Positions 15,038-16,304 of a stretch of 48,101 nucleotides of DNA are shown here, piece after piece. Below the pieces are notes generated by a model. The model was not told the DNA's origin and searched no databases. It saw only the letters and a list, made by a program, of their open reading frames with translations. Position 1 is the first letter of the stretch; each line of letters begins with the position of its first letter. The stretch is from Candidatus Kaiserbacteria bacterium. Its GTDB lineage: Bacteria; Patescibacteriota; Minisyncoccia; Phycocordibacterales; Phycocordibacteraceae. The stretch lies in NCBI GenBank assembly GCA_016217905.1, contig JACRFL010000015.1:1-48101 (forward strand), read 5' to 3'. Both the position numbers and the translations under genes were made by a program.

Positions 15038-15063
15038 CGTTATACACAGAACTCAGTTATGCG

Positions 15064-15092
15064 TTGTAATTTCGTTACAGAAAGGTTATTCT
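15064..15092 (+). promoter_or_regulatory. Promoter of the Panacea gene
   Basis: TTGTAA-17 nt-TATTCT, 8 nt before ATG 15101. Confidence 0.6.
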
Positions 15093-15100
15093 TTTCATAT

Positions 15101-15616
15101 ATGGGGCCTGCGGTCCTTCCCCTTCTGGAAGTGCAACTTGATGAGCGTCTGTATAAGAACGCGGTTTTGTATTTCATTAAGTACTGCAACAATAAATATT
15201 TGGGCGTTACGAAACTCAACAAACTTCTCTATTATCTCGATTTCATCTCATATCGAGACCGGGGCAAGTCTTTCACCGGCGACACGTACATCCATGACCA
15301 ATACGGACCGGTTCCTGCTTCTATAGGCGAAGTTCTTACGACTCTCAAAAGCGATGGAGCAATTGATGCTTTGGCTGTGTCTTATAAAGATGGCGAAAAA
15401 ATTCAATTTGAAATTAGTGACGCCACTCAATTTGATGAAAAGATATTTTCAAAAGAACAAAAAGGGCTTTTAAAGTCCATATGTGATGAGTTCGGAAGCT
15501 GGCCAACCGAGAAAATTGTTGCACAAACTCATCTTGAAGCCCCGTGGTTCTATTCGAAGCCCTATCAAATAGTCGATTACGAGTACGCGCGCGACATCGA
15601 CTTTTTTAAGAAATAA
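15101..15616 (+). CDS. Panacea-domain (DUF4065/SocA-like) protein, putative antitoxin
   Basis: KYCNNKYLGVTKLNKLLYYLDFISYRDRGKSFTGDTYIHDQYGPVPASIGEVLTTL. Confidence 0.88.
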   Translation: MGPAVLPLLEVQLDERLYKNAVLYFIKYCNNKYLGVTKLNKLLYYLDFISYRDRGKSFTGDTYIHDQYGPVPASIGEVLTTLKSDGAIDALAVSYKDGEKIQFEISDATQFDEKIFSKEQKGLLKSICDEFGSWPTEKIVAQTHLEAPWFYSKPYQIVDYEYARDIDFFKK

Positions 15617-15625
15617 ATTCCCGTT

Positions 15626-16015
15626 ATGGCGTGGGTACTTGTCGAGCGGGAACAGTTTGTGCGTATGTGCGACAAGATTGAGGTTTCTGAAATTGTTCGT
15701 GATTTTATTCGGACTTGGGCACCCTCCGTTAGTCGATACGAAATACCATCTCAAAAACTCATTTACCGCTCGCCGAATAATCGCTATGAAGCATGGAATG
15801 CGCGTATCCCGAATCCAAACAGCAATAAAGGTAAACGTGGTGGATACCGTCTGGTATTTTTTCTTGACCTACAGACCGCTACTGTTAATCTTGATTTTAT
15901 AGAAGAGCGCGACAATCTTGGTTATAAAAATGAAGGGCATCACAAAAAAGATGGATACAACGCGTATATCTCAGAAGTGAAAAAAGAACTCGCTAGACGC
16001 GACCCTTTGTCATAA
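15626..16015 (+). CDS. Putative toxin, RelE/ParE-like fold suggested
   Basis: Starts 9 nt after the Panacea gene; ARIPNPNSNKGKRGGYRLVFFLDLQTATVNLDFIEERD resembles the RelE-type gKrGGyRv..y core. Confidence 0.6.
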   Translation: MAWVLVEREQFVRMCDKIEVSEIVRDFIRTWAPSVSRYEIPSQKLIYRSPNNRYEAWNARIPNPNSNKGKRGGYRLVFFLDLQTATVNLDFIEERDNLGYKNEGHHKKDGYNAYISEVKKELARRDPLS

Positions 16016-16247
16016 GTTTTTGGTACCTTTCAAACAAAAATTCAAGGCGGGTGGATTCGGAAGGGAAAGGTTTGGTAATGCCGTAGGCGCGGTCGAGCGC
16101 GTGGCGCGCATCGAGCAAGTCCTTCGGCATAGCATTCGGGTCGTAGAGGTCGACGAGCGTCGCACCTGGGTGCGCGGCACGCGCATCCACGCCATACGCA
16201 TGAGCGAAGCCAGCCGCACGGTCGCGTACTTCGTTCCAGGTGAGCAT
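15993..16247 (-). pseudogene. Remnant of an MmeI-like DNA methyltransferase (apparent internal deletion)
   Basis: LTWNEVRDRAAGFAHAY resembles the MmeI-family N-terminus; LVDLYDPNAMPKDLLDARHALDRAYG..FPSESTRLEFLFERYQKLM resembles its C-terminus. Confidence 0.6.
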
Positions 16248-16304
16248 GCAAGAATTATATATAATACCTTCGCTTCATTCTAGGAAACGGCTATACTGCA
16301 GGAG

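Follow-up and report, generated by a model that had tools for sequence, protein, structure and literature searches.

The window analyzed here, a stretch of 48,101 nucleotides that forms a single contig (G000:C12) of a 610-kb source genome, carries a two-gene unit between glyA and argS. In this unit, a Panacea-domain gene, panA, is followed by a small gene, panT. Named relatives (Yanofskybacteria, Nomurabacteria, and Paceibacterota) suggest that the genome belongs to the CPR/Patescibacteria. As described in an initial annotation of the sequence, the 129-aa ORF lies 9 nt downstream of the Panacea ORF and both occupy a pocket of lower GC content (41 to 43%, compared to 54 to 58% in the flanks); the identity of glyA and argS was confirmed by tblastn against relatives. 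The features of the locus are as follows.

15038..16304, no strand assigned: accessory island between glyA and argS, 1,267 bp
15064..15092, plus strand: promoter-like string TTGTAA-17-TATTCT, 8/12 to consensus, chance level
15101..15616, plus strand: panA, putative Panacea-domain antitoxin with a length of 171 aa when read from the likely start; PF13274 is the sole Pfam domain
15617..15625, plus strand: panA-panT gap of 9 nt, an operon-like spacing that stays short in relatives
15626..16015, plus strand: panT, RelE/HigB2-like toxin candidate, 129 aa, no family above cut-off; described from profile comparisons and a homolog alignment
15993..16247, minus strand: 84-aa remnant of an MmeI-type (type IIG/IIL) restriction-modification (RM) enzyme, corresponding to its C-terminal domain; PF20467, E = 1.5e-16; PADLOC REase_MTase_IIG, 2.2e-13

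At its full extent, the Panacea ORF spans 15059-15616(+) and encodes 185 aa from an opening ATG at 15059. Because alignments of PanA with its relatives begin at approximately codon 15 of this ORF, the ATG at 15101 is favored and is probably the true start. The product scored 69.2 bits against PF13274 (SocA_Panacea; cut-off, 25.7 bits; E = 7.1e-19), which identifies it as a Panacea protein, and a Pfam scan detected no helix-turn-helix (HTH) and nothing else beyond Panacea, making PanA a stand-alone Panacea. No other Panacea gene is present in the source genome. A family search of both proteins, proposed as a check in the initial annotation, thus placed PanA, whereas PanT gave nothing above cut-off. 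The same annotation had credited the pair with its own promoter, and the string in question is present (TTGTAA at 15064-15069, 17 nt, and TATTCT at 15087-15092), but the two hexamers agree with the sigma-70 consensus at just 4/6 positions apiece. A scan of the region returned zero promoter sites at 9/12 or better, while the shuffled region averaged 2.0 such sites. Since the string reaches only 8/12 and shuffles yield better sites, the proposed promoter is no better than chance.

Homologs were collected starting from the downstream protein rather than from Panacea, and the upstream gene was then inspected. The genomes searched with the toxin comprised 99 relatives, 397 genomes of the order, 380 of the phylum, and 335 of the class, in partly overlapping sets. 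Full-length PanT homologs were recovered from 17 distinct genomes, the window counted, and a Panacea ORF lies directly 5′ of panT in 17/17 of these, as well as in both genomes with a truncated copy (G175 and G960). Six of these loci were recovered with a toxin profile that was fixed beforehand and with no other query. In total, the panA-panT pair is present in 19 genomes, and the genes flanking it vary from locus to locus. The 129-aa protein had been put forward as the cognate partner of Panacea, with neighborhood conservation across genomes as a check and infrequent co-occurrence of its homologs with Panacea genes as grounds for abandoning the idea; the invariable adjacency of the full-length homologs bears the proposed partnership out. 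Two short PanT fragments, one in G621 and the other a second copy in G250, have no Panacea within reach and look like relics.

Beyond these sets, a short-peptide scan of 85,462 species returned one close relative, in Yanofskybacteria; at the Yanofskybacteria locus obtained from the GTDB species scan, PanA and PanT share 70% and 65% identity, respectively, and the two genes are 8 nt apart. No relatives were found among viral contigs, which were searched twice, or among phages, and plasmids yielded only distant RelE/ParE toxins and nothing closer. Judging from the species scan, the family is likely restricted to Patescibacteria. As to the surroundings of individual pairs, the one in G498 is adjoined by 1240-aa and 362-aa ORFs (L150:4779-9546 −) with no Pfam or PADLOC match, and a zeta-toxin gene and an N6_N4 methylase lie near the one in G250 (L156:4803-5510 +).

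PanA and PanT distances were strongly correlated across 12 pairs (Mantel r = 0.86), with 0/20,000 permutations as high. In a tree of 94 PanAs, partners of this PanT type come together in a single group of 14 rows. Labels of toxin type cluster strongly on the PanA tree, requiring 25 changes over all label groups compared to 63.0 when labels were shuffled. Both genes are under purifying selection, as nonsynonymous differences are far less frequent than synonymous ones in each (for panT, pN of 0.16 to 0.27 versus pS of 0.47 to 0.99). Because the adjacent pair is conserved in distant genomes and pN lies far below pS, the Panacea ORF and the 129-aa ORF are both real genes. In the two genomes with truncated copies, the damage is confined to the toxin: the G175 panT (L071:2024-2242 +) has a frame that joins PDK to LAKEF, so that the catalytic core is gone in comparison with its nearest relatives, and the G960 panT (L169:1501-1698 +) has an early stop that leaves 65 aa, while panA is intact in both. 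A harmful PanT and a harmless PanA would be expected to give such toxin-only loss. Together, these comparisons leave the reading of panA-panT as a real, conserved toxin-antitoxin (TA) pair well supported.

The gap between glyA and argS measures 27 bp in G040 and is similarly short in G016, G034, G057, and G005 of the same genus; in some genomes it is ~25 to 30 bp. Several congeners thus have an empty site in place of the panAT module, and others carry unrelated short inserts, for instance a GNAT-like ORF (G029) or a TrpR-like HTH gene, which were identified by eye. The glyA-argS junction is therefore a variable insertion spot in the genus; a direct search for repeats at the island edges found none of at least 14 bp. 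The nearest PanAT pairs occur outside the genus, in Yanofskybacteria and others, with PanT identities of 61 to 65%, whereas the PanT of congener G052 is only 28% identical and lies away from glyA, a pattern that points to horizontal acquisition of the two genes as a unit. The MmeI-type remnant, situated between panT and argS, is convergent with panT, with a 23-nt overlap at the 3′ end of the latter; congeners G002 and G054 carry full-length homologs of this enzyme (921 to 938 aa).

PanT matched no curated family in Pfam, NCBIfam, or PADLOC, and no match to PF06296 was obtained even at E ≤ 10. Two of its homologs, L066 and L068, reach PF06296 (RelE) with E values of 0.009 and 0.047, short of the cut-off, and as the best homolog reached 16.6 bits against a cut-off of 27, PanT is not assigned to PF06296. 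In a PDB search with a profile of eight homologs, HigB-2 chains ranked on top with weak values (E = 0.23 or worse). Comparison of the PanT profile by hhalign with L160 and L161, two plasmid-encoded proteins above the PF06296 cut-off, gave 96.7% over 42 columns, a similarity limited to the ~42 columns around GKRGGYR; most partner clusters of other types, PemK-like included, gave <2% by the same procedure. Weak genome matches of the PanT profile include two PF05016 toxins, which adjoin MazE and Phd_YefM antitoxins. At the level of sequence, PanT thus appears related to bona fide members of the RelE/ParE (BECR) superfamily.

Residues F11, W57, G69, R75, and R95 are invariant in 12/12 PanT homologs, and position 100 is Y/F in 10/12. 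Cleavage by Escherichia coli RelE requires R61, R81, and Y87, and the corresponding residues of Mycobacterium tuberculosis RelE1 are R65, R85, and Y89 (PMC12620021). The R75-R95 spacing of 20 in the window PanT equals that of R61-R81 in RelE and of R65-R85 in RelE1, matching R75, R95, and aromatic 100 as probable equivalents of RelE R61, R81, and Y87. AlphaFold models built from shallow four-sequence alignments were of low confidence for both PanA and PanT. As the PanT model reached a pLDDT of only 45, the assignment of its fold rests on sequence; Foldseek returned no RelE match for this model, a search that carries no meaning.

Could PanT nevertheless be a ParE-like inhibitor of DNA gyrase within a PanAT module, rather than an mRNase? 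RelE and ParE have one common fold, and sequence alone may mislead (PMC11980606); ParE-annotated toxins are also reported with Panacea (PMC8832971), and the two PF05016 matches belong to the family ParE_toxin. ParE gyrase inhibitors, however, are without such catalytic residues (PMC11980606), yet PanT keeps R75, R95, and the aromatic residue at RelE-like spacing, and for this reason the RelE/HigB2-type mRNase is favored over the ParE type. Its closest curated family, PF06296, is moreover listed as a ribosome-dependent mRNase, and we regard gyrase inhibition as improbable. The RelE/ParE hint of the initial annotation thus agrees with weak but concordant sequence evidence in which the catalytic-type residues speak for RelE, while the new fold that it considered possible finds no support. 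A true TA pair with a toxin of some other, unrecognized fold, whose RelE likeness at GKRGGYR would be convergent, strikes us as slightly less probable again. Several lines converge on the RelE superfamily (HigB-2 PDB matches, PF06296 homolog matches, hhalign, and PF05016 matches), and the R-20-R-5-[YF] pattern spans the catalytic triad, even though PanT has no above-threshold family, the similarity is so narrowly confined, and the fold search gave no RelE; the elements of the pLDDT-45 model (E-H-H-E...E-E-E-H) are compatible with RelE topology but carry little weight.

That the locus holds no functional TA system at all, being instead a decaying accessory remnant or a regulatory PanA beside an unrelated small gene, seems very unlikely. 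The module does adjoin the MmeI remnant in a variable spot, and panT is broken in some relatives (G175 and G960). In the window, however, panA and panT are intact, co-diverging, and under purifying selection, and loss of panT with retention of panA is the outcome to be expected of relaxed selection on a toxin. Overall, we consider it likely that the pair is a type II PanAT module, in which PanT is a diverged RelE/HigB2-type ribonuclease neutralized by PanA, and that it is carried as horizontally acquired accessory cargo.

In such a type II module, PanA would bind, mask, and inhibit PanT, and the co-divergence of the two proteins lends indirect support to a complex of this kind. If PanA were lost or remodeled, freed PanT, with its predicted BECR fold, would cut mRNA on the ribosome, most likely in the A site, and translation would stop; the role of the module is probably phage defense or its own maintenance. 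We infer PanT toxicity, direct neutralization by PanA in a complex, a trigger, ribosome-dependent cleavage, and a defense role. A published stand-alone Panacea is described as neutralizing its toxin by direct contact, and in the same paper Panacea is proposed as a possible trigger sensor (PMC10440598). Kurata et al. report that 8/25 PanTs tested were nontoxic in E. coli (PMC8832971).

Panacea is present in 58/297 genomes of the order. Among ~87 Panacea loci examined, the downstream partners of ~38 belong to clusters that profile comparison links to RelE-like proteins; the largest of these clusters are only partly anchored, C3 directly and C4 solely via C3. Panacea genes of the order often precede RelE-like toxins of several mutually distant groups (L009-L094), and partner groups C6, C8, C9, and C11 gave no clear match. 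In G388 (L149) and G164 (L153/L066), homologous PanAT pairs are embedded in type I RM loci, with hsdS on one side and hsdR on the other. The same position is occupied by a PanAT pair of a different toxin type in G085 (L069) and, in G317 (L079), by a Panacea gene counted without a toxin partner. In a small control, hsdS/hsdR-type neighbors were found at 0/30 glyA loci. DarTG2 is known to occupy the interval from hsdS to hsdR, which has been proposed as an insertion spot for defense genes (PMC12255303). Panacea-RelE modules appear to be common accessory cargo in Patescibacteria and recur within type I RM loci, where embedded defense genes are known to occur. A bolder reading, which we offer as speculative and on balance unlikely, is that a Patescibacteria lineage has RelE-type toxins as its main Panacea partners, recurrently in or beside RM loci, with Panacea as the sensor and RelE as a translation-stopping effector that would guard or back up RM in these ultra-small, host-dependent bacteria.

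With regard to known systems, SocA of the type VI TA system SocAB likewise has a Panacea domain. Identity with SocAB was rejected, as PanA scored 11.9 bits against the SocA equivalog NF047745 (cut-off, 190). With RelE/HigB2 toxins of PF06296 (HigB-2, PDB 5ja8/5mje), PanT has in common the GK[RS]GG[YF]R core, the catalytic-type Arg pair, its size, and a two-gene context. Unlike them, it falls below the family cut-off, has a diverged N-terminal half, and is partnered by Panacea; the window pair is also antitoxin-first, whereas the order listed for PF06296 modules is toxin-first (PMC11980606). The main text of that 2025 survey of RelE/ParE toxins makes no mention of Panacea. MqsR-PanA modules resemble the window in combining a Panacea antitoxin with a BECR-fold mRNase, as predicted for PanT, but MqsR belongs to PF15723, to which the window PanT has no match, and in the tested MqsR-PanA neutralization is performed by a Zn-binding domain, of which none was detected in PanA from the window.

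The closest correspondence is with PanAT systems (Kurata et al. 2022, PMC8832971; NetFlax 2023, PMC10440598), which are described as sharing with the window the order of Panacea first and toxin immediately 3′, the two-gene operon, and a mobile distribution; in being a stand-alone Panacea, the window PanA is like a published PanA reported to neutralize directly (PMC10440598). These systems span 88 toxin clusters, including the BECR-fold mRNase MqsR as well as ParE-annotated toxins (PMC8832971). The idea that the pairing may be new thus holds in part: Panacea with MqsR and with ParE-annotated toxins is already published (PMC8832971, PMC10440598), and the PF06296-like family of the window is not among the toxin families named in the main text (toxSAS, Fic/Doc, MazF/PemK-like, membrane, cyclase, MqsR, and ParE), although unnamed clusters may include it. 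The 17 intact natural pairs and the natural toxin-loss alleles could be used to map Panacea specificity. Overall, the window pair fits the published PanAT class and is a further example of it, adding an apparently RelE-like, Pfam-invisible toxin family whose full-length copies, in the sample searched, occur only with Panacea.
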